Shown here one piece after another: positions 17,956 to 35,087 of a stretch of 47,562 bases of DNA; the first letter of the stretch is position 1, and each line of letters starts with the position of its first letter. The position numbers and the translations under genes are program-made. The notes beneath the pieces are model-generated. The model ran no database searches, was not told the origin of the DNA, and saw only the letters and a program-made list of their open reading frames with translations. Source of the stretch: Saprospiraceae bacterium (lineage in GTDB: Bacteria > Bacteroidota > Bacteroidia > Chitinophagales > Saprospiraceae); contig JAHDDR010000007.1 in the NCBI GenBank assembly GCA_020629255.1, positions 1-47,562 on the forward strand, given 5' to 3'.

Positions 17956-20757
17956 ATGTCGGATACAAAAAAATTATTTCTCTTAGATGGACATGCTTTA
18001 GTTTATAGAGCTCATTACGCATTTATTAAAAGACCCCTTATTAATTCAAAGGGGCTAAATACTTCGGCTATTACCGGTTTTACCAATTCTCTTTGGGAGG
18101 TCATTTCCAAACAGCAGCCATCCCATCTTGCTGTTGCTTTTGACATTTCGGATAAAACGGTATTCCGAAAAGAAATGTACCCGGAATACAAAGCCAATCG
18201 GGAAGAACAACCCGAAGACATTACTCTGGCATTCCCTTATATCCGGAAAATCGTTGAGGGGATGAATATCCCTATCCTAGAAAAATCAGGTTTTGAGGCG
18301 GATGATGTGATTGGTACGATTGCAAAACAAGCGGAAAAAGAAGGTTTCCAAGTATATATGATGACCCCCGACAAGGATTATGCTCAATTGGTGAGTGAAA
18401 ATATTTTCATGTATAAACCGGCTCGTTTTGGGAATGGCGTGGAAATCCTTGGCGAAAAAGAAGTACTTGAAAAATGGCAGATTAAACGAGTAGAACAAGT
18501 CATCGACGTCTTAGGTTTACAAGGAGACAGTGTTGATAATATTCCAGGCATACCGGGCATTGGTGCGAAAACCGCTGTTAAATTACTTGCAAAATACGAC
18601 TCTGTAGAAGGTCTTATCGAACATAGCCATGAACTAAAAGGGAAACAAAAAGAAAAGGTAGAAGAGTTTGCTGAACAAGGCATCCTTTCTAAGAAACTAG
18701 CTACTATTGATCTCCAAGTCCCTATCCAATTTGATGCCCGTGCTTGTAAAATTTCAGCGTTCGACAACCCTGCTCTTACAGAGCTTTTCAAAGAGCTTGA
18801 ATTTCGTTCCATTGCTACAAAAATATTAGGTATTTCTTCTTCGACAAAGAAGGCCGCTGTTCCAGCAGGAACCCAGACCAGTTTATTCGGGAATGCTCCA
18901 TCCACTACCATTGTGGCTCCCAAGGAGAGCATTGTTGCAGAGAAAAACATCACAAATGTAGATCACGAATATCATTATGTGGATTCTCCTTCGGAGCTGA
19001 AGAAATTGAAAACCCTTTTATCCAAACAAAAAGAAATTTGCTTCGATACGGAAACAACCGGTCTGGATGCCAACCAATCGGAATTGGTGGGTTTGGCTTT
19101 TTCGATAAAAGAACATGAAGCTTATTATGTTCCTGTTCCTGAAGATCAAAAAAAGGCAAAAGAGATTCTAGATATTTTCAAACCCATATTAGAAGATGAA
19201 TCCATTATGAAAATCGGGCAAAATATTAAATATGATTGTCTGATTTTGAAATGGTATGATGTGGATGTCAGGGGATCTTTGTTTGATACCATGATTGCCC
19301 ATTATTTGTTAGAACCTGAACTAAGGCATAACCTGAATTATCTATCCGAAACCTATTTGGATTATACTCCTGTTTCTATCGAATCACTAATAGGAAAAAA
19401 AGGAAAAGGACAATTATCCATGCGAGATGTCCCCGCAGAAAAAATCAAGGAATATGCTGGAGAAGATGCTGATCTGACCCTTCAGCTCAAGCAAAATTTA
19501 GAACCAGAAATCAAAAAAGAAAAATTTGAAAAATTATACTGGCAAACGGAGGCTCCCTTAGTAAACGCCTTAGTTGAAATAGAATACAATGGTATTAATT
19601 TGGATGCCGGCTTTCTTGCCACTTATTCTAAAGAATTAGAAAAGAAAATCATTGAATCGGAAACATCTATTTATGATACGGCCGGATTGAAATTCAACAT
19701 TGCCTCTCCCAAACAAGTGGGGCAAGTATTGTTCGAACATTTGAACGTTCCTTACCGCTGGAGAAAAACAAAATCCGGACAATATTCGACCAGTGAAGAA
19801 AAATTAGTTGAACTATCTGTGGATCATCCTATCATTTCTGAAATCCTTAAATTTAGAGGGCTCGCAAAACTAAAATCGACTTATGTCGATGCCTTGCCGA
19901 AAATGATCAACCCTAAAACCGGAAGAATCCATTCTTCCTTCAATCAAGCTTTGACTGCTACGGGGAGGTTAAGTTCCAACAATCCGAATCTGCAAAACAT
20001 CCCCATCCGTACTCCTGAGGGGAGAAAAGTTAGAGAAGCTTTTATACCAAGAGACAAAGATCATATTCTTTTGGCGGCAGATTATTCTCAAATAGAATTG
20101 CGTTTGATTGCAGAAATCAGCAAAGATGAAGCGATGCTGGAAGCATTTAAAAAAGGCTACGACATCCATAAAGCGACAGCGGCAAAAGTGTATGGTGTTC
20201 CTTTGGATGAAGTAACTGCCGATCAAAGAAGGAATGCTAAGACGGTCAACTTTTCTATCATTTATGGTGCTGGTTCTTTAAATCTTTCCAGACAATTAAA
20301 AATCAAGAGAACCGAAGCGAGCCAGCTAATCGAAAATTACTTCAAACAATATAAAGGCCTAAAAGCCTACATGGATAACCAAGTGAGTATCGCTCGGGAG
20401 CAAGGCTATGTCGAAACATTGTTGGGCAGAAGGAGATATCTAAGGGATATCAATTCTAAAAATGGCGTTTTGCGAAGCCATGCAGAACGGAACTCGATCA
20501 ACACACCTGTGCAAGGGACGGCTGCCGACATGATTAAAATGGCGATGATTAAAATCCACGAAGTTTTCAAGAAGGAAAACATCGCTTCTAAAATGATACT
20601 CCAAGTACATGATGAACTAGTTTTTGATGCCCGAAAGGATGAATTGGAAAAGATAAAACCGATTATCGAAGAAAATATGAAAACGGCATTACCCAATCTT
20701 TCTGTTCCTATTTTAGTGGGAATGGATACAGGTAATAATTGGCTCGAAGCTCACTAA
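17956..20757 (+). CDS. polA: DNA polymerase I
   Basis: A 933-residue three-domain polymerase from the start MSDTKKLFLLDGHA. The 5' nuclease is at 1-290 (FEADDVIGTIA, TPDKDYAQLV, LGLQGDSVDNIPGIPGIGAKTA). The 3'-5' exonuclease region has its DTE motif intact (CFDTETTGLD), so proofreading is plausible. The family A polymerase domain carries DYSQIELR, RRNAKTVNFSIIYG and QVHDELVFD. It fills gaps and removes RNA primers and acts after UvrA-dependent excision. Seven extra codons upstream are in frame but would overlap the promoter element. It is followed after two bases by a pyroglutamyl peptidase gene, so the two are probably co-transcribed. Confidence 0.97.
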   Translation: MSDTKKLFLLDGHALVYRAHYAFIKRPLINSKGLNTSAITGFTNSLWEVISKQQPSHLAVAFDISDKTVFRKEMYPEYKANREEQPEDITLAFPYIRKIVEGMNIPILEKSGFEADDVIGTIAKQAEKEGFQVYMMTPDKDYAQLVSENIFMYKPARFGNGVEILGEKEVLEKWQIKRVEQVIDVLGLQGDSVDNIPGIPGIGAKTAVKLLAKYDSVEGLIEHSHELKGKQKEKVEEFAEQGILSKKLATIDLQVPIQFDARACKISAFDNPALTELFKELEFRSIATKILGISSSTKKAAVPAGTQTSLFGNAPSTTIVAPKESIVAEKNITNVDHEYHYVDSPSELKKLKTLLSKQKEICFDTETTGLDANQSELVGLAFSIKEHEAYYVPVPEDQKKAKEILDIFKPILEDESIMKIGQNIKYDCLILKWYDVDVRGSLFDTMIAHYLLEPELRHNLNYLSETYLDYTPVSIESLIGKKGKGQLSMRDVPAEKIKEYAGEDADLTLQLKQNLEPEIKKEKFEKLYWQTEAPLVNALVEIEYNGINLDAGFLATYSKELEKKIIESETSIYDTAGLKFNIASPKQVGQVLFEHLNVPYRWRKTKSGQYSTSEEKLVELSVDHPIISEILKFRGLAKLKSTYVDALPKMINPKTGRIHSSFNQALTATGRLSSNNPNLQNIPIRTPEGRKVREAFIPRDKDHILLAADYSQIELRLIAEISKDEAMLEAFKKGYDIHKATAAKVYGVPLDEVTADQRRNAKTVNFSIIYGAGSLNLSRQLKIKRTEASQLIENYFKQYKGLKAYMDNQVSIAREQGYVETLLGRRRYLRDINSKNGVLRSHAERNSINTPVQGTAADMIKMAMIKIHEVFKKENIASKMILQVHDELVFDARKDELEKIKPIIEENMKTALPNLSVPILVGMDTGNNWLEAH

Positions 20758-20759
20758 AG

Positions 20760-21344
20760 ATGAAAGTATTACTTACTGGGTTTGGTCCATTTAAAGATTT
20801 CTCCATCAATCCATCTCAAATAATTGTTGAAAAATTTGAGATGGAGGAAGTCATCCTAAAAAAGAAAATTTTTGAGGTAGATAAAGAAGCTATCGAAGCT
20901 TCTTATATATCTCTATTGGATGGTTTCCAACCGGATTTCATTATCAATATTGGATTGAATGCCGGTTCGGGAGCTTTGAATCTTGAAACTTTTGCCATTA
21001 ATAGTCTAAAGGATAAGGAACAATTTTCTGATATTTCCCATCCTCCCGGATTCAGAACCTTCGTGGATACCGATGCTATTTCCGAGCATCTCTGCAGACA
21101 AGGAATACCAGCTATACGATCCGATTATGCCGGGAGCTATTATTGCAATTTCATTTATTATCTATCCTTACAATGGTGTGAAAAAAATCAAGGTAGTTCT
21201 CTTTTCTTGCATATTCCATTTACGACAAAATTAGCCAGCGACTACTGCAAGGAAAAGAAAAAGGCGGTCCCCTCTCTGGATGATGAAATTATCATCAGCG
21301 GAATAAAAGAAATCATCTATCATATAAAAGGAATAGAGGTGTAG
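20760..21344 (+). CDS. pcp: Pyroglutamyl peptidase I (C15 family)
   Basis: A 194-residue cysteine peptidase from start MKVLLTGFGPFKDFSINPS, which is the family N-terminus. An overlapping start seven codons earlier is rejected on that basis. The catalytic triad can be placed as E76 (NLETFAIN), C129 (GSYYCNF) and H151 (FLHIPF). It removes N-terminal pyroglutamate from peptides in the cytoplasm. The region after the active Glu is somewhat divergent from the well-studied enzymes (GLNAGSGALNLETFAIN). It follows polA by two bases. No functional tie to DNA replication is known, so the arrangement is probably only an operon of convenience. Confidence 0.85.
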   Translation: MKVLLTGFGPFKDFSINPSQIIVEKFEMEEVILKKKIFEVDKEAIEASYISLLDGFQPDFIINIGLNAGSGALNLETFAINSLKDKEQFSDISHPPGFRTFVDTDAISEHLCRQGIPAIRSDYAGSYYCNFIYYLSLQWCEKNQGSSLFLHIPFTTKLASDYCKEKKKAVPSLDDEIIISGIKEIIYHIKGIEV

Positions 21345-21351
21345 GATTTTT

Positions 21352-22254
21352 TTATGGCAATGCCTCCATCATTTCTATATATTCATCAGTATCCAACATT
21401 TCTTCTGTGCTATTGCAGGTATCCGAACCGAGGATCATGTTTTCTAAATCTTCTAGGACTTCTTTTCTGTAGGTAAAAGTATAAACATCATCATCATCTA
21501 CAGAAATACTGGGAGGCCTAGCATTCAACCAATGAAAATTAATCCAATTATTATTTTCTGCTTCCAACAGTAGGCTTTTAAGCCCCATCGGAGAATAAGC
21601 ATGCTCACAAATCACCTCATTCATCATAAATTCATCCGCTTCGAAAGTTACGCTGGGGTCATATTCTATATCCCTACAATAATCCACCATACTGACATTC
21701 ATATCTGATATGCCATTAATTACATCTTTAAATACTTTCGTTCCCATGCCATCATTATTAGACACCATGAACTTCAAGCGATCCATAACTTTGCTGATGG
21801 CATCTACCGCATTTTGATTGATTCGGTCATTATAATACGCTTCGTGCCCCATTACTGCCAGCAGTTGTGGCTCACTGGACATCTGTTTCAACATTCCGGT
21901 TGTGATACCGAGTTTCCCACCCGGGAGGGTGTAGGCATCTAAATTGACATCATCATGAAGAACGAAAACTTCCCAATCATAGTAATCTCTTATTTCTGTC
22001 TGGTTACGAACCATTGTCCAAGCCAAATTTAAATAGCTATAAACCTTTGGGTAAGCGGTTTTATCTAATAAATTGTAATCACTAGGATTATCATAAATGG
22101 TTCGCATCAGCTCGTTTCCTAGATCTCGTTCATCTGCTGCTATTAGGATAGGGTTGTATATGCCCAAGTCCTCTGTTTTGCACGAAAAATATCCCGTAAT
22201 AACAATCGTTATTAGAAAAAAGATTAAGATTTGTTTCGGTTGTATCAGTGCCAT
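21352..22254 (-). CDS. M48-metallopeptidase-like lipoprotein with a broken zinc site, copy A
   Basis: A 300-residue lipoprotein (lipid Cys25 in GYFSCKTED). It aligns with the intact M48 peptidase of this window (34290-35087) through DAYTLPGGKLGITTGMLK (there NAFCTPGGYIYVYTGLIK), QLLAVMGHEAYYNDR (there QLAGVMGHEIAHADQ) and FEADEF (there TEADNY). The zinc motif HExxH is HEAYY (137-141): the second zinc His is Tyr. The late THP motif of M48 is replaced by ARPP. So the fold is probably kept but zinc-peptidase catalysis is probably lost. It lies downstream of a paralogue with the same loss. A role as binding or scaffold protein on the membrane is inference. It could also be a divergent enzyme with other ligands. 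Confidence 0.75.
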   Translation of the reverse strand: MALIQPKQILIFFLITIVITGYFSCKTEDLGIYNPILIAADERDLGNELMRTIYDNPSDYNLLDKTAYPKVYSYLNLAWTMVRNQTEIRDYYDWEVFVLHDDVNLDAYTLPGGKLGITTGMLKQMSSEPQLLAVMGHEAYYNDRINQNAVDAISKVMDRLKFMVSNNDGMGTKVFKDVINGISDMNVSMVDYCRDIEYDPSVTFEADEFMMNEVICEHAYSPMGLKSLLLEAENNNWINFHWLNARPPSISVDDDDVYTFTYRKEVLEDLENMILGSDTCNSTEEMLDTDEYIEMMEALP

Positions 22255-22280
22255 AGTCCATATGTTTAGAATCGACTAAA

Positions 22281-22310
22281 TCCATTGCCTTTCGTTTGAA
22301 AAGCAATGGA
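22281..22310 (-). terminator. Possible terminator between the two M48-like genes
   Basis: An 8-bp perfect stem TCCATTGC / GCAATGGA (22281-22288 with 22303-22310) with a 14-base loop. The - strand tail ATTTAG is T-poor, so it may only reduce read-through from copy B into copy A. Confidence 0.35.
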
Positions 22311-22349
22311 TCCAATTTAATTATGTCTTATCTTCCATTTGGTGAGCCT

Positions 22350-23210
22350 CTATCTAAGCGGCTCTATAAAGTCATTATATCTTGAGATATATTGGTCTGC
22401 ATTTTCACTTCCGCATCCCATATACCAATCATTCATATTGTCCAATCTTTCTTGTAAGTTGTGAGTCATATCATTCATTTGGGAATATCGTCCCGGAGGG
22501 CGGTTATCCAACCAAATAAATTCTGAAATTTCACTTCCGGTAATAAGTACTTCTTCCAAACCATAAGGAGAATACAGATAATTTCCACAAATAGTATTCA
22601 AGGCGAATTCATCGGCATCCAGAACCTGATAAGGTTCGTACATGATATTTCTTAAAAATAGAACCATATTAGAGCCTTCGTCGGATGTTCCATCTACAAC
22701 ATCTAAGAATATTTTTGTGCCATAGGTACCAAATTTGCTTTTCAACAATTGCATTACAAGACTCAAATCATCTCTATCTCCTTGAACCGGACGGTCGGAA
22801 AAATAAACTTCATGGGACAAAAGGGCTATAAGTTGATGCTCTGCATTTAGGTGGGTAAGAATTCCGGTACTCATGAAAATCTTCCCTCCTGGTAATGCAA
22901 AGATATTATAATTATCGTCATCCTCATATATTGCAATTTCCCAATTGAACCTACTTTTTATTCTCGTATTGATAATGGCCATATTCAAAGCCGAATTCAA
23001 ATATTCGTAAAGGGCAGGGTAATCCTGCACTTCCAAAATATCCAATACCAACATAGATTCTTGGTACAACCGTTCTCCTAACTCACTTTCGTTAGACGGA
23101 GTGAGTACTGGATTTTGCAAATCCAAATTATCATCTTTGCACGCACTCAAAAATAAAATGAGAACGAGACTAAAAATAAATGGATTAAATATTTTGTTTA
23201 CTAGTTTCAT
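22350..23210 (-). CDS. M48-metallopeptidase-like lipoprotein with a broken zinc site, copy B
   Basis: A 286-residue lipoprotein (lipid Cys24 in LFLSACKDD). It is a paralogue of the gene at 21352-22254, sharing NIFALPGGKIFMSTGIL, ALLSHEVYFSDR, DADEFALN and YSPYGLEEVL. The expected HExxH is HEVYF (133-137), so the second zinc His is Phe, and the Glu of the downstream EAD motif is Asp (D198-A-D200). The final THP of M48 peptidases is replaced by NRPP. Two independent changes at zinc ligands suggest a stably non-proteolytic protein. It is the promoter-proximal gene of the pair. The 253-bp gap to uvrA contains no clear promoter motif on this strand. Confidence 0.75.
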   Translation of the reverse strand: MKLVNKIFNPFIFSLVLILFLSACKDDNLDLQNPVLTPSNESELGERLYQESMLVLDILEVQDYPALYEYLNSALNMAIINTRIKSRFNWEIAIYEDDDNYNIFALPGGKIFMSTGILTHLNAEHQLIALLSHEVYFSDRPVQGDRDDLSLVMQLLKSKFGTYGTKIFLDVVDGTSDEGSNMVLFLRNIMYEPYQVLDADEFALNTICGNYLYSPYGLEEVLITGSEISEFIWLDNRPPGRYSQMNDMTHNLQERLDNMNDWYMGCGSENADQYISRYNDFIEPLR

Positions 23211-23463: not shown

Positions 23464-26304
23464 ATGAATAATATTACTGATAACGAATCCTTAACGAAAA
23501 ATATTGATGTTGTTGGCGCAAAAGTCCACAACCTAAAGGATATAAATGTTAAAATACCAAGAAATAAGCTGGTTGTTATTACAGGAATTTCTGGCAGTGG
23601 CAAATCTTCTTTGGCATTTGATACCATTTATGCTGAGGGACAAAGAAGGTACATGGAAACCTTTTCTGCATATGCTAGGCAATTCATTGGTGATATGGAA
23701 CGACCCGACGTTGAAAAAATTACCGGATTGAGCCCTGTTATCTCCATAGAACAAAAAACAACAGGAAGAAATCCGAGATCTACTGTAGGAACTATAACAG
23801 AAGTCTACGATTTTTTGAGATTACTTTTCGCCAAAATTGGAGAAGCTTATTCCTACAATACGGGCAAGAAAATGACCAAATTCACCGAAGATCAAATTGT
23901 AGAACATATTCTTAAAAACTATTCCAATAAAAAAACTGCCATTTTGGCTCCCTTAGTTCGAGGAAGGAAAGGCCACTACAGAGAACTTTTCGATCAATAT
24001 AGAAAACAAGGGTACACCAAAATCAGGGTAGATGGTGAAATACTTGACTTAGTTCCCAAAATGCAAGTAGATCGCTACAAAGTACATGATATTGAACTGG
24101 TTCTGGAAAGGCTCAAAGTCTCGGAACAAAGAAAAAAACGCATTATTGATGCTTTGCGAATCGCTCTAAAATTAGGAAAAGGGTTATTGATGGTCGAAAA
24201 CTTAGAAACCAATACCATCAGTCAATATTCTAAGAATCTGATGTGCCCTGATACGGGCATTTCCTACGAAGAACCGTCACCCAATGCATTTTCTTTCAAT
24301 TCTCCTTATGGTGCTTGTCCGAATTGCAAAGGCTTGGGTCGTATCCAAGAAGTTGATTTAGACCTAGTGATCCCTGATGAGACCAAAAGCATCAATGAAA
24401 AAGGCTTGGCTCCTTTAGGAGAAGTAAGGGACAATTATTCTTTCAAACAGCTAAGGGTTATGGCTAAGGAATACAAATTTTCCTTTTCTACCCCCATCAA
24501 AGATATTCCCAAAGAAGTGATCCAAACTATCCTGTATGGAGGTAATGACAAATTGGCCATGAAAATGAAATTTGGTAAAGGTGAATACAACTACCACCTT
24601 GCCAATGAAGGCTTGGTCAACATGCTTACTCGGTGGCATAAGGACACCTCTTCCGAAGGCGTTCGGAGATGGGCTGAAGCATTTATGACCACCAATACTT
24701 GTTCCACATGCCACGGACAAAGGCTCAAGAAGGAATCGCTGCATTTTAAATTGGAGAAGAAAAACATTTCCGAATACAGCGAAATGGATTTGTCCCAACT
24801 CTATGAAGCAATAGAGAAACTGGAAAAGAAACTCAACGCTAGACAAAAACTCATTGCAAAGGACATCATCAAGGAATTAAAGCTTCGAATTGGCTTCTTA
24901 TTGCATGTAGGATTAGATTATCTAACATTGAACCGTCCCGCACGGTCATTGTCGGGAGGAGAGGCACAAAGAATTAGGCTTGCTACACAAATCGGATCTC
25001 AATTAACCGGCATCACCTATATTTTGGATGAACCCAGCATTGGCCTTCACCAAAGAGACAATCAAAAACTGATAGAAGCACTCAGAGAATTAACCGAAAT
25101 CGGCAATACTGTTTTAGTCGTCGAACATGACAAAGACATCATGCTGGCGTCCGATTTCCTAATTGATCTAGGTCCTGGGGCAGGGAAATATGGGGGTTCT
25201 CTTGTAGGAGAAGGACACCCCAGCCAATTCCTCAAAAAGGATACGATTACAGCATCCTATCTCAATGAAAAGGCAAAAATCGAAACGCCCAAAGAGAGGC
25301 GAAAGGGAAATGGTGAGTTTATCGAACTGAAGGGGGCTAAAGGCAATAATTTACAGAATGTCAATATCAAAATTCCCTTAGGGACATTTACTTGTGTAAC
25401 GGGTGTTTCGGGCAGTGGAAAATCCACTCTCATCAACGAAACGCTATACCCTATTTTGAGAAAACATTTTTATAAAAGCAAAAAAAATCCATTGCCTTAC
25501 GGCGAATTGAAAGGCATGGAACACGTGGATAAAGTCATCGAAATCGACCAATCTCCGATTGGTAGAACTCCCCGTTCTAACCCGGCTACATACATTGGAG
25601 TTTTTACTCATATCCGTAATTTATTTTCCAACATTCCGGAATCCAAAATAAGGGGTTACAAACCCGGGCGTTTCTCTTTTAACGTGAAAGGTGGTCGCTG
25701 TGAAGTTTGTCATGGAGGTGGAAAGCGAGTCATCGAAATGAATTTCCTTCCGGATGTTTATGTCGATTGCGAATCTTGCCTCGGCAAAAGATACAATCGA
25801 GAAACGCTGGAAATCATGTATAAGGGCAAGAACATTTCGGATGTTCTAAATATGACGGTCAACGAAGCGACCGATTTCTTCGAAGGCATCCCTTCTATTT
25901 ATAAAAAATTAAAAACGCTTAGAGATGTTGGATTAGGATACATCACTCTAGGACAACAAGCCACAACATTATCAGGTGGTGAAGCCCAACGAGTAAAATT
26001 ATCTGAGGAATTATCCAAACGGGATACGGGTAAAACCATTTATATCTTGGATGAACCAACCACCGGTCTCCATTTTGCAGACATCAAACAATTATTGGGC
26101 GTTTTGGATAAATTAGTCGAAAGGGGAAATACGGTTCTAGTCATTGAACATAATATGGATGTAATTAAGGTGGCCGATCATATTATTGATATGGGTCCCG
26201 AGGGTGGCAGACGGGGAGGAACTGTTGTTGTAGAGGGGACTCCGGAAAAAGTGGCCAAAAGCAAAAAGAGCCACACTGGGTTCTTTCTCAAAAAGGAATT
26301 ATAA
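23464..26304 (+). CDS. uvrA: Excinuclease ABC subunit A
   Basis: A 946-residue damage-recognition ATPase of nucleotide excision repair. It has two ABC modules: Walker A GISGSGKSS (41-49) and GVSGSGKST in the second half, signature LSGGEAQR twice, and Walker B ILDEPS / ILDEPT. Zinc-binding modules are visible: CPNCKGLG in the insertion region with CSTCHGQR, and CEVCHGGG with CESCLGKR in the second module. Length is normal. It acts with UvrB and with Mfd, also encoded here. The start has an AT-rich, weakly marked upstream region (a TATTTTTA near 23429 is one base off the -7 consensus). Confidence 0.98.
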   Translation: MNNITDNESLTKNIDVVGAKVHNLKDINVKIPRNKLVVITGISGSGKSSLAFDTIYAEGQRRYMETFSAYARQFIGDMERPDVEKITGLSPVISIEQKTTGRNPRSTVGTITEVYDFLRLLFAKIGEAYSYNTGKKMTKFTEDQIVEHILKNYSNKKTAILAPLVRGRKGHYRELFDQYRKQGYTKIRVDGEILDLVPKMQVDRYKVHDIELVLERLKVSEQRKKRIIDALRIALKLGKGLLMVENLETNTISQYSKNLMCPDTGISYEEPSPNAFSFNSPYGACPNCKGLGRIQEVDLDLVIPDETKSINEKGLAPLGEVRDNYSFKQLRVMAKEYKFSFSTPIKDIPKEVIQTILYGGNDKLAMKMKFGKGEYNYHLANEGLVNMLTRWHKDTSSEGVRRWAEAFMTTNTCSTCHGQRLKKESLHFKLEKKNISEYSEMDLSQLYEAIEKLEKKLNARQKLIAKDIIKELKLRIGFLLHVGLDYLTLNRPARSLSGGEAQRIRLATQIGSQLTGITYILDEPSIGLHQRDNQKLIEALRELTEIGNTVLVVEHDKDIMLASDFLIDLGPGAGKYGGSLVGEGHPSQFLKKDTITASYLNEKAKIETPKERRKGNGEFIELKGAKGNNLQNVNIKIPLGTFTCVTGVSGSGKSTLINETLYPILRKHFYKSKKNPLPYGELKGMEHVDKVIEIDQSPIGRTPRSNPATYIGVFTHIRNLFSNIPESKIRGYKPGRFSFNVKGGRCEVCHGGGKRVIEMNFLPDVYVDCESCLGKRYNRETLEIMYKGKNISDVLNMTVNEATDFFEGIPSIYKKLKTLRDVGLGYITLGQQATTLSGGEAQRVKLSEELSKRDTGKTIYILDEPTTGLHFADIKQLLGVLDKLVERGNTVLVIEHNMDVIKVADHIIDMGPEGGRRGGTVVVEGTPEKVAKSKKSHTGFFLKKEL

Positions 26305-26384: not shown

Positions 26385-27290
26385 ATGAATAAAATATATC
26401 TACTTTTATTTTTTGCTTCCTTAATCCTGATTTCTTCTTGTAGGGAAGATGATACTTCCGATCGGGACCCTGTAGAATTTTGCCCCATCGGCAATCTGGT
26501 AGATCTACAAATGGCACTAGGCAATCCGAGTGGAGCCGTGGCCAACGTCAATTCTCCCAATAATTACCTGATGGAAATGGACGAATACACCATTTCGTAC
26601 AATCGGGACAGAGCCATCGCCAATTGGGTAAGCTGGTATCTTAGCCCTAATTGGTTTACTGGAGACGGAAGCCGTCAAGATGATTTTAGGGCTAACCCCT
26701 TCATTCCATCAGATTGGTACACCCCTAATGCCAACTCATATCAAGGAAGCGGTTTTGACCGAGGGCACAATTGCCCTTCTGCGGATCGTTTATGTTCTGA
26801 TAATTTCAATTCTGCCACGTTCTTCATGACCAACATGATTCCCCAAGCACCTCAAAACAACCAGGATGTTTGGAGAAGTTGGGAATGTTACTTGAGACAT
26901 TTGGCTAACCAGGGCAACGAACTGTACATAGTTATGGGAAATTATGGTATAGGAGGCGATGGCTTTTTCGGTTATAAAGAAAAAATTGTGGATGGAGATA
27001 ATGAAATCACTGTACCTGCTTCCATTTGGAAAGTCGCTATTGTTATTCCAGAACAAGATGGCGATGATATCAGTCGGATTAATGCACAAAGCACTGTTAT
27101 TGCCATAGATATTCCCAATGATCAAGAAGCAGGTGATTTTGCTTGGGACGATCCTTCTTTCATTACGACTGTAGATGATATCGAAAGCTTAACGGGTTAT
27201 GACTTATTTTCAGAGTTACCTGATAATGTAGAATCTGTTTTGGAAAATAAAGTACATGATGTAGAAGCGGGTTATCAAGCTTGTTTTTAA
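26385..27290 (+). CDS. DNA/RNA non-specific endonuclease, lipoprotein
   Basis: A 301-residue NUC-family (beta-beta-alpha metal) nuclease with a lipoprotein signal (lipid Cys19 in LILISSCRED). The active site is DRGH (125-128, catalytic H128), and the Mg-binding Asn is expected at N159 in TNMIPQAPQNNQDVW, with a following Glu in WRSWE. This is the Serratia/EndA nuclease arrangement. It would degrade DNA and RNA at the cell surface or in the periplasm for nutrient use or biofilm turnover. It has its own promoter and a shared bidirectional terminator. Cys residues at 33, 130 and 137 might form disulfides. Confidence 0.92.
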   Translation: MNKIYLLLFFASLILISSCREDDTSDRDPVEFCPIGNLVDLQMALGNPSGAVANVNSPNNYLMEMDEYTISYNRDRAIANWVSWYLSPNWFTGDGSRQDDFRANPFIPSDWYTPNANSYQGSGFDRGHNCPSADRLCSDNFNSATFFMTNMIPQAPQNNQDVWRSWECYLRHLANQGNELYIVMGNYGIGGDGFFGYKEKIVDGDNEITVPASIWKVAIVIPEQDGDDISRINAQSTVIAIDIPNDQEAGDFAWDDPSFITTVDDIESLTGYDLFSELPDNVESVLENKVHDVEAGYQACF

Positions 27291-34289: not shown

Positions 34290-35087
34290 TTACAATAAAC
34301 TCTTCAATCTTTGATAACGAGTTTGATCCCTTATATCTGTCATTTTACATCCGTTCGCTGCTGCTTTGCTTCTAATGTTTTGAATCCTATTATCCGGGTT
34401 CGGGTGGGTACTCATGAATTCCGGCGGAGCTCCTCCTCCCTGACTTTGGATTTTTTGGAAGAAACCGGCTGCACCGGCACAATTGTATTTCGTACCACTC
34501 AAATAATGAACCGAATAATTGTCTGCTTCTGTTTCGTGCCCTCGACTGAATTTTAGGTTAATAAGCCCAGCCGTAATCGCAGCCAATTGTTCTCTATTTC
34601 CTGCCAATGCTGATACAAGTACAGAAATTCCATACATTTTTGTCATTTGTCGAGTAGAATGCCTTTGGTCGGCATGTGCGATTTCATGACCCATTACTCC
34701 TGCCAACTGATCTTCCTTATCCAAGAATTTGATGAGTCCAGTGTAAACATATATGTAACCGCCTGGTGTACAGAATGCGTTAAGTGTTTTATCATCATCA
34801 ATGATTTTCACTTCCCAGGCAAAATCATTTCTGTGATGTACTTTTCCTGAGTTAAGAATATCATTCGTCATGTCTCGAATGATTTTATAGGCTTCTCTAT
34901 TCGTCGATTCTTTTAAAATCGGGAATTGGCTAGGATTGCTTTCGATCTCATTCTTTACTTGCAAACCCAACTCTGCGTCTTGCTGTTTAGAGAACAGGTT
35001 AAAACCTCCTCCAGGTTTACTTCCTTTACAACCAGAAAAAAGTAGGGTGAGTATCATGATGGATAAAACCCAAAAATGCTTATTCAT
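34290..35087 (-). CDS. M48-family zinc metallopeptidase, lipoprotein
   Basis: A 265-residue periplasmic peptidase, lipidated at C20 (LLFSGCKGS) from the start MNKHFWVLSIMIL. The 13 extra upstream codons are not signal-like. The zinc site is complete: HEIAH (134-138), with the third ligand Glu in GHETEADNY and the late STHPNPDNRI motif of the Oma1/BepA branch. It is likely an envelope protein quality-control or outer-membrane assembly protease. Two zinc-site-broken relatives lie at 21352-23210. A TAAATTTG element stands 37 bases upstream. Confidence 0.9.
   Translation of the reverse strand: MNKHFWVLSIMILTLLFSGCKGSKPGGGFNLFSKQQDAELGLQVKNEIESNPSQFPILKESTNREAYKIIRDMTNDILNSGKVHHRNDFAWEVKIIDDDKTLNAFCTPGGYIYVYTGLIKFLDKEDQLAGVMGHEIAHADQRHSTRQMTKMYGISVLVSALAGNREQLAAITAGLINLKFSRGHETEADNYSVHYLSGTKYNCAGAAGFFQKIQSQGGGAPPEFMSTHPNPDNRIQNIRSKAAANGCKMTDIRDQTRYQRLKSLL

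Follow-up and report, generated by a model that had tools for sequence, protein, structure and literature searches.

A zinc-less clade of M48-fold predicted lipoproteins in Saprospiraceae that may bind envelope polypeptides without cutting them

Introduction

BepA, an M48 peptidase of Escherichia coli that also carries a TPR domain, both cuts outer-membrane proteins and assists their assembly, and these two modes of action are hard to separate. Its zinc ligands are H136, H140, E201 and H246, the last of which lies on the plug motif HPx4R, as given in the relevant section of PMC7950410. According to the mechanistic part of a further BepA study, the edge strand contacts substrate and is required for both proteolysis and the chaperone-like activity, and a His switch has been proposed through which substrate could rest uncut at the site (PMC8423444). 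The same part describes the protease-dead mutant E137Q, whose chaperone activity is only partial; loss of catalysis therefore has a cost in BepA (PMC8423444). Another M48 peptidase of solved structure, Q74D82 (PDB entry 3c37), comes from Geobacter sulfurreducens, again according to the relevant section of PMC7950410.

Pseudoenzymes that have lost the metal site of a metallopeptidase, kept its fold and taken on binding or scaffold roles are known from families M12, M13, M14, M41 and others, as set out in the available text of a review (PMC11266112). M48 does not occur in that portion of the review text (PMC11266112), and a search of mainly freely available literature found no described family of M48 pseudopeptidases. 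Here we describe a tandem pair of M48-like lipoprotein genes from a Saprospiraceae bacterium (contig JAHDDR010000007.1, positions 1 to 47,562; this whole stretch of 47,562 nucleotides is referred to as the window), together with the relatives of the pair.

Results

The tandem pair and its surroundings

An earlier note, made from the DNA letters of the window, had pointed to two adjacent paralogues with altered M48 motifs and to an intact HEIAH homologue elsewhere. Both open reading frames were found on the minus strand with the motifs described, and the homologue was located with its GHEIAH, HETEAD and STHP motifs. The features concerned are as follows.

20739-21344, plus strand: pyroglutamyl peptidase gene (Peptidase_C15, Pfam PF01470), convergent neighbour of the pair
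21352-22254, minus strand: P0001, zinc-less M48-fold predicted lipoprotein, 300 aa, tandem copy 2
22255-22349, minus strand: intergenic gap of 95 bases between the co-directional genes P0002 and P0001
22350-23210, minus strand: P0002, zinc-less M48-fold predicted lipoprotein, 286 aa, tandem copy 1
23464-26304, plus strand: divergent neighbour of the pair, which from its sequence we take to be uvrA
34290-35087, minus strand: P0003, intact M48 lipoprotein (HEIAH, HETEAD, STHP), comparison paralogue

On the minus strand P0002 comes first and P0001 follows. The two probably form a single transcription unit; no terminator-like site is listed in the 95-base gap, and promoter- and terminator-like sites as a whole are no more frequent than in shuffled sequence. 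P0003 lies 11 kb from the pair within the same window. A gene for a lipoprotein-like DNA/RNA non-specific endonuclease (26385-27290, PF01223) adjoins uvrA. The genome from which the window comes (4.38 Mb in 271 contigs, 89% complete) yielded no additional zinc-less copy when searched with P0002; M48-domain matches above the cut-off occur on three of its other contigs, one of them borderline. A comparison of P0001 with viral contigs gave no match.

Predicted fold and lipid anchor

The M48 domain of Pfam (PF01435) matches P0001 and P0002 above its cut-off (E 4.1e-9 and 5.8e-8), as it does P0003 (E 1.2e-34). The match to the two tandem proteins stops at the HE region, whereas P0003 is matched over nearly the whole domain. 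Against the BepA model NF052400, P0002 and P0001 scored 25.3 and 20.9 bits, compared with a cut-off of 570. AlphaFold2 models were built from alignments of 12 zinc-less sequences and no intact ones, and reached a pLDDT of 83.0 with a pTM of 0.80 for P0001 and 85.3 with 0.82 for P0002. A Foldseek search with the P0002 model returned, at E <= 0.001, nine chains, all belonging to 3c37 or BepA. In a second structural alignment the models superimposed on 3c37 over 215 residues with Z 23.8 and an rmsd of 2.4 Å (P0002) or Z 23.4 and 2.5 Å (P0001). The corresponding Z values were 23.2 and 22.1 for BepA (6ait), 18.5 and 17.7 for a second BepA entry (6sar), and 8.9 and 8.3 for the next best solved fold, ZMPSTE24. 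On these models and profile matches, both proteins are of the M48 fold that the earlier note had assumed, and no unrelated fold was obtained.

The N-terminus of each protein has a hydrophobic stretch and a Cys resembling that of a lipobox. This Cys, read from the sequence, is invariant after the hydrophobic stretch in 39 of 39 aligned rows, and P0001 and P0002 are predicted to be exported lipoproteins.

Zinc-ligand positions

P0001 carries the motifs PGG..TG, GHEAYY, FEAD and NARPP, and P0002 carries PGG..TG, SHEVYF, LDAD and DNRPP. The positions of interest, all on the minus strand, are listed below.

21517-21519, minus strand: P0001 R246 in WLNARPP, which aligns with the BepA switch His (ligand 4)
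21646-21648, minus strand: P0001 T203, where intact M48 has the Glu that is zinc ligand 3
21832-21846, minus strand: P0001 HEAYY, residues 137-141; the His of ligand 1 and the catalytic Glu are retained, and Tyr stands in for the His of ligand 2
21916-21924, minus strand: P0001 PGG, residues 111-113, adjoining the kept edge strand
22500-22502, minus strand: P0002 R237 in WLDNRPP, at the switch His position
22611-22613, minus strand: P0002 D200, the Asp of ExxxD, kept in intact and zinc-less rows covering it
22623-22625, minus strand: P0002 V196, at the position of zinc ligand 3
22800-22814, minus strand: P0002 HEVYF, residues 133-137; the His of ligand 1 and the catalytic Glu are retained, and Phe stands in for the His of ligand 2
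22884-22892, minus strand: P0002 PGG, residues 107-109, adjoining the kept edge strand

In the alignment, ligand positions 1 to 4 are occupied by H133, F137, V196 and R237 in P0002 and by H137, Y141, T203 and R246 in P0001. Three of the four are changed in each protein (Y/F, V/T and R), and the catalytic Glu (P0002 E134, P0001 E138) and the ExxxD Asp (P0002 D200, P0001 D207) are retained. A profile comparison of zinc-less with intact homologues (probability 100, E 7e-44) places V196 on the ligand-3 Glu and R237 on the switch His. The exchange of HExxH for HEAYY or HEVYF, and of THP for ARPP or NRPP, is confirmed and is far from chance (182 homologues compared); the His of THP is BepA ligand 4, H246, and is Arg in both proteins. 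Neither the HExxH nor the third-ligand Glu of an active M48 peptidase is present. With ligands 2, 3 and 4 gone, M48-type binding of the catalytic zinc is no longer possible.

One detail of the earlier reading needs correction. It had described the EAD motif as kept in one copy and as DAD in the other. The letters are as described, but that E or D is no zinc ligand, because ligand 3 is a Glu that precedes the Asp by four residues; a hand count along the aligned BepA sequence puts E201 at this place and rules out the E of EAD. V196 of P0002 and T203 of P0001 stand here instead, and this ligand is therefore lost in both. Tyr as a replacement ligand was rejected because P0002 carries Phe at that position.

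Relatives across Saprospiraceae

From loci L001-L216 we obtained 182 distinct homologues, 96 with HExxH and ExxxD and 86 without. Two fragments gapped at the motif columns (L142:828-1325 and L187:1-465) were dropped from the latter, leaving 84 zinc-less rows, the HExxY group, which all come from Saprospiraceae and the shortest of which has 211 aa and lies at a contig edge. A further protein, L311 (G003, NExxY), is included in an 85-row table and stands outside the 84.

Ligands 2 and 3 are lost together in 84 of 84 zinc-less rows. Position 2 has Tyr in 77, Phe in 5, Leu in 1 and Ile in 1, and position 3 has Val in 74, Ile in 7, Thr in 2 and Ala in 1. Ligand 1 is His in 72 rows, Asn in 8, Ser in 2, Tyr in 1 and Arg in 1; the catalytic position is Glu in 77/84, and the ExxxD Asp is present throughout (84/84). 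The switch position has Arg in 52 rows, Lys in 17 (Arg or Lys in 69/84), His in 9, Met in 5 and Tyr in 1, the column being unsure in five rows that read Thr or Asn in the 85-row table rather than Met. The Pro after the switch is retained in 66/84. The plug column has Trp in 79/84, compared with Phe in 86/96 and Trp in 9/96 of the intact rows, and all four ligands are found in 95 of the 96 intact homologues, one being gapped. No mixed form, with one of ligands 2 and 3 lost and the other kept, was seen in the 180 rows covering these columns; this holds among the matches listed, the 100 places fetched for typing having come nearly all from one listing. The loss of the zinc site, proposed earlier for the pair itself, is conserved in related genomes in every zinc-less row covering the motifs (84/84).

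Zinc-less genes are present in all nine genomes of the window genus, as a tandem pair in seven and as a single copy in two (G136 and G252), and, by tblastn of window proteins, adjoin uvrA in all nine and in one genome of another genus (G184). A search of 298 genomes of the family with P0002 gave matches in 62 at E <= 1e-15, a few of them through an intact gene (at least two, G041 and G144). A scan of 84,980 species, which used one pattern with PGGK and misses zinc-less genes with other letters there, gave 333 relatives. The best 80 of the 333 loci were examined: nine belong to the zinc-less group and hold 10 zinc-less genes, and the other 71, mostly of cyanobacteria and planctomycetes, all have HExxH (71/71). 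An order-level search gave 21 loci of other families within L068-L090, all HExxH among the matches listed, and ten class-level loci (L297-L306) have HExxH, ExxxD and THP. Since all these relatives outside the family have HExxH, the zinc-less clade is, by these motifs and among the loci examined, confined to Saprospiraceae.

The loci examined share no common neighbour indicating a client. A DUF2400 gene adjoins the zinc-less gene in two genera (L220 and L225), and genes for a ROK-family protein and a PKD-cyclophilin lie convergent after it in three genomes (L222, L223 and L224). In 24 of the 84 zinc-less loci (L016, L018, L021, L024, L027, L030 and L033 among them), and in 17 of the 44 loci with at least 900 bases of upstream sequence, the zinc-less gene is preceded by a same-strand gene for a TPR protein of about 470-500 aa. 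In L204 (G248) a weak homologue of the TPR gene is convergent beside an intact M48 gene, with no zinc-less copy among the matches listed. We claim no functional link to the TPR gene; by eye its product has no signal peptide, and its homologues in the window genome sit on other contigs.

A second zinc-less group

Weaker matches led to a second zinc-less group of 26 rows (L307-L310 and L326-L347), here called FExxL, in which all four ligands are lost. Ligand 1 is replaced by Phe (24), Tyr (1) or Cys (1), ligand 2 by Leu (22), Met (2) or Asn (2), ligand 3 by Val (18), Ile (3), Leu (3) or Thr (2), and the switch His by Arg (24) or Lys (2). The catalytic Glu, the ExxxD Asp and the plug Trp are each present in 26/26 rows, and the Pro after the switch in 12/26. 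Pfam M48 E-values for the four FExxL proteins tested ranged from 6e-6 to 0.0024, three being above the cut-off. At E <= 1e-25 the FExxL profile has a match in 42 of 199 family genomes; HExxY or intact genes account for the weaker ones. In a tree of 129 rows, made by a quick method with every second intact row, FExxL forms one clade (99) that groups with HExxY against the intact rows (100); its branching position within the HExxY group has no supported placement. On contigs G169:C99 and G079:C121, from a pair of genomes in one genus, a HExxY gene lies about 7 kb from an FExxL-profile match. The earlier view of the genes as a local pair is therefore right in that the pair exists, but falls short in that the pair belongs to a family-wide clade with a second group that has degenerated further.

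The residues that remain raise the question of another chemistry. The His, Glu and Tyr of HExxY, with others, might bind a different metal or run a different reaction, and His (72/84), Glu (77/84), Tyr (77/84) and the Asp (84/84) are indeed kept in most HExxY rows. Such an altered metalloenzyme is very improbable, since P0002 and four other rows have Phe in place of the Tyr at position 5 (5/84), the His is lost in 12/84 and the Glu in 7/84, both His and Tyr are gone in FExxL, and the ligand positions show no newly conserved His, Cys or Glu. No complete alternative metal site is conserved.

The residues following the lipid anchor bear on where the proteins may reside. Counted over the five residues that follow the lipid Cys, acidic residues average 1.52 in HExxY (65 of 73 rows with a detected lipobox), 1.27 in FExxL (22/26) and 0.61 in intact homologues (51/59), an excess with p 7.5e-8 and 0.0026 for the two zinc-less groups by tests that ignore descent. 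P0002 begins C-K-D-D-N, which resembles the lipoprotein export signal of Capnocytophaga, K-(D/E)2, as stated in the section of PMC5080379 on that signal. The proteins might on this evidence be displayed at the cell surface and capture outside polypeptides for uptake or attachment. We regard this as unlikely, since the Capnocytophaga signal needs its Lys one place later (same section of PMC5080379) and our home-made lipobox finder misplaces some sites; the position and the rule are not those of the Bacteroidetes export signal.

Phylogeny and selection

A tree calculated without the motif columns (132 of the 182 rows after thinning, by a quick method and with several long branches) has one branch parting 73 zinc-less from 59 intact rows, with SH-aLRT 100. 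The rows nearest the intact set are L149, L151, L153, L167, L181, L187 and L192. Four of these seven retain the switch His with ligands 2 and 3 gone, which points to a later change at the switch than at those two ligands. At two loci in genomes from near the base of the zinc-less clade (G099:C84:29998-31664, L187; G192:C383:280-2061, L153), the zinc-less gene and an intact M48 gene are direct neighbours in the same orientation, with the zinc-less one upstream. Origin of the clade through tandem duplication of an intact gene would be expected to leave this arrangement.

A second duplication came later. The tandem copies of the window genus sit deep inside the zinc-less clade and single-copy G136 branches before both sets of copies; on this topology the tandem duplication took place within the genus, after the zinc site was lost, in line with the order of events proposed in the earlier note. 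Single-copy G252 and copy 1 of G033 form an unresolved fork with both sets. Copies 1 and 2 of one genome are 34-40% identical, compared with 54-63% for the same copy between the four closest genomes; the pair is therefore old and its copies have been held apart.

Comparison of close genomes gave dN values of 0.30-0.39 for either zinc-less copy and of 0.09-0.11 for the intact paralogue. A dS value was obtained in 3 of 12 zinc-less pairs (3.2-4.5) and 1 of 3 intact pairs (2.4), and the remaining values are taken to be saturated. Reading frames stay open and, where dS is computable, amino-acid changes are far fewer than silent ones. Judged by these rates, the zinc-less genes are constrained, three to four times less than the intact paralogue. 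That they are decaying relics without function is scarcely credible. At least one broken relative exists, a G244 copy with an in-frame stop (G244:C84:22748-23491), but no internal stop occurs in the other places among the matches listed, dN is far below dS where the latter is computable, the tandem pair is present in seven of nine genus genomes, and the plug Trp and Arg/Lys are conserved.

The same rates and the distribution of intact genes bear on whether the zinc-less proteins act as regulators or decoys of the intact paralogue, by pairing with P0003 or competing for its substrates. The two share a fold, P0003 lies nearby in the window, a P0003-type gene is found in 40 of 71 carrier genomes, and in G099 and G192 the zinc-less and intact genes are neighbours. 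This hand-compiled tally of 71 includes the broken G244 copy and leaves out G003. However, the other 31 of the 71 carriers, including 10 of the 28 that are at least 95% complete, have no intact-profile match (E <= 1e-45), with the caveat that draft genomes may miss a P0003-type gene and that a different M48 peptidase could take the partner's place. Protein change is also three to four times faster in the zinc-less copies than in the intact paralogue. Obligate regulation of P0003 is therefore less likely, and regulation of the active enzyme, which the earlier note had put forward as one possible role, is weakened as a general function. We consider a regulator or decoy role distinctly unlikely.

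Discussion

P0001 and P0002 fit the description of a metallopeptidase pseudoenzyme: by the models and alignments the fold is kept, and the ligands have been lost through a change conserved across relatives. The zinc-less M48 proteins of Saprospiraceae form an old, conserved clade, on our preferred reading one of pseudopeptidases that bind envelope polypeptides without cutting them; we give this reading an even chance. P0001 and P0002 would hold on to envelope polypeptides that are unfolded or being assembled, using the retained edge strand, in the manner suggested for BepA while its His switch represses the site. The two diverged copies in the window genus would hold different clients.

Binding without cutting at the envelope is favoured by the retention of the edge strand together with the role of that strand in BepA. 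Of five segments compared, the edge-strand one, W..AF..PGG...I.TGLLK.L, ranks first in conservation in HExxY and second in FExxL; its mean top-residue frequency in the two zinc-less groups, 0.57 and 0.59, is below the 0.83 of intact rows. The non-catalytic envelope role raised in the earlier note fits the lipobox Cys, the open frames and the edge strand; the function itself we infer.

The plug Arg or Lys might pair with the kept catalytic Glu and so replace the latch of zinc and His, although we are less sure of this step. The main reason for proposing an ion-pair latch is that Glu and plug cation are retained in FExxL with all four ligands gone. In HExxY the cation accompanies the Glu in 68 of 77 rows, as against 1 of 7 rows without Glu (Fisher p 7.8e-5, not independent of descent); the other 9 Glu-bearing rows of the 77 lack a switch cation. 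When counted by independent pairs on the starred branches, about two agree, none oppose and three tie, which is not significant. A broader version, in which an exchange of cation for zinc in some ancestor within Saprospiraceae turned a protease that also had a chaperone-like mode into pure holdases (HExxY and FExxL), some of them placed at the surface, is offered tentatively and is rather unlikely.

A natural, long-lived M48 lineage that lacks the zinc site and keeps the edge strand and Glu would show the non-catalytic capacity of the fold, and would also reveal which residues matter for non-catalytic work. A caution for annotation follows from the motifs: P0001 and P0002 pass the Pfam M48 cut-off, yet the label 'peptidase' appears unsuitable for them.

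Among described proteins, BepA has the M48 fold, edge strand, catalytic Glu and ExxxD Asp in common with P0001 and P0002. Of its plug motif HPx4R, the Pro and the later Arg are kept and the His is Arg, and its ligands 2 and 3 and switch His are lost. Unlike BepA, the two proteins have a predicted lipid anchor and give no TPR match (Pfam scan, E <= 1). The closest solved structure to P0002 by both sequence (E 9.4e-6) and fold is 3c37, which, unlike P0001 and P0002, keeps HExxH, ExxxD and THP. The intact P0003-type M48 lipoproteins of the order share size, lipid anchor, a Cys pair and a C-terminal Tyr/Leu tail with the zinc-less proteins, and differ in having the full catalytic motifs (95/96, one row being gapped at THP). 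Metallopeptidase pseudoenzymes as such are already known; the family-wide, coordinated change in M48 and the FExxL group appear to be new, as far as we are aware. Compared with the known metallopeptidase pseudoenzymes, the zinc-less M48 proteins are distinguished as predicted bacterial lipoproteins with a changed plug.
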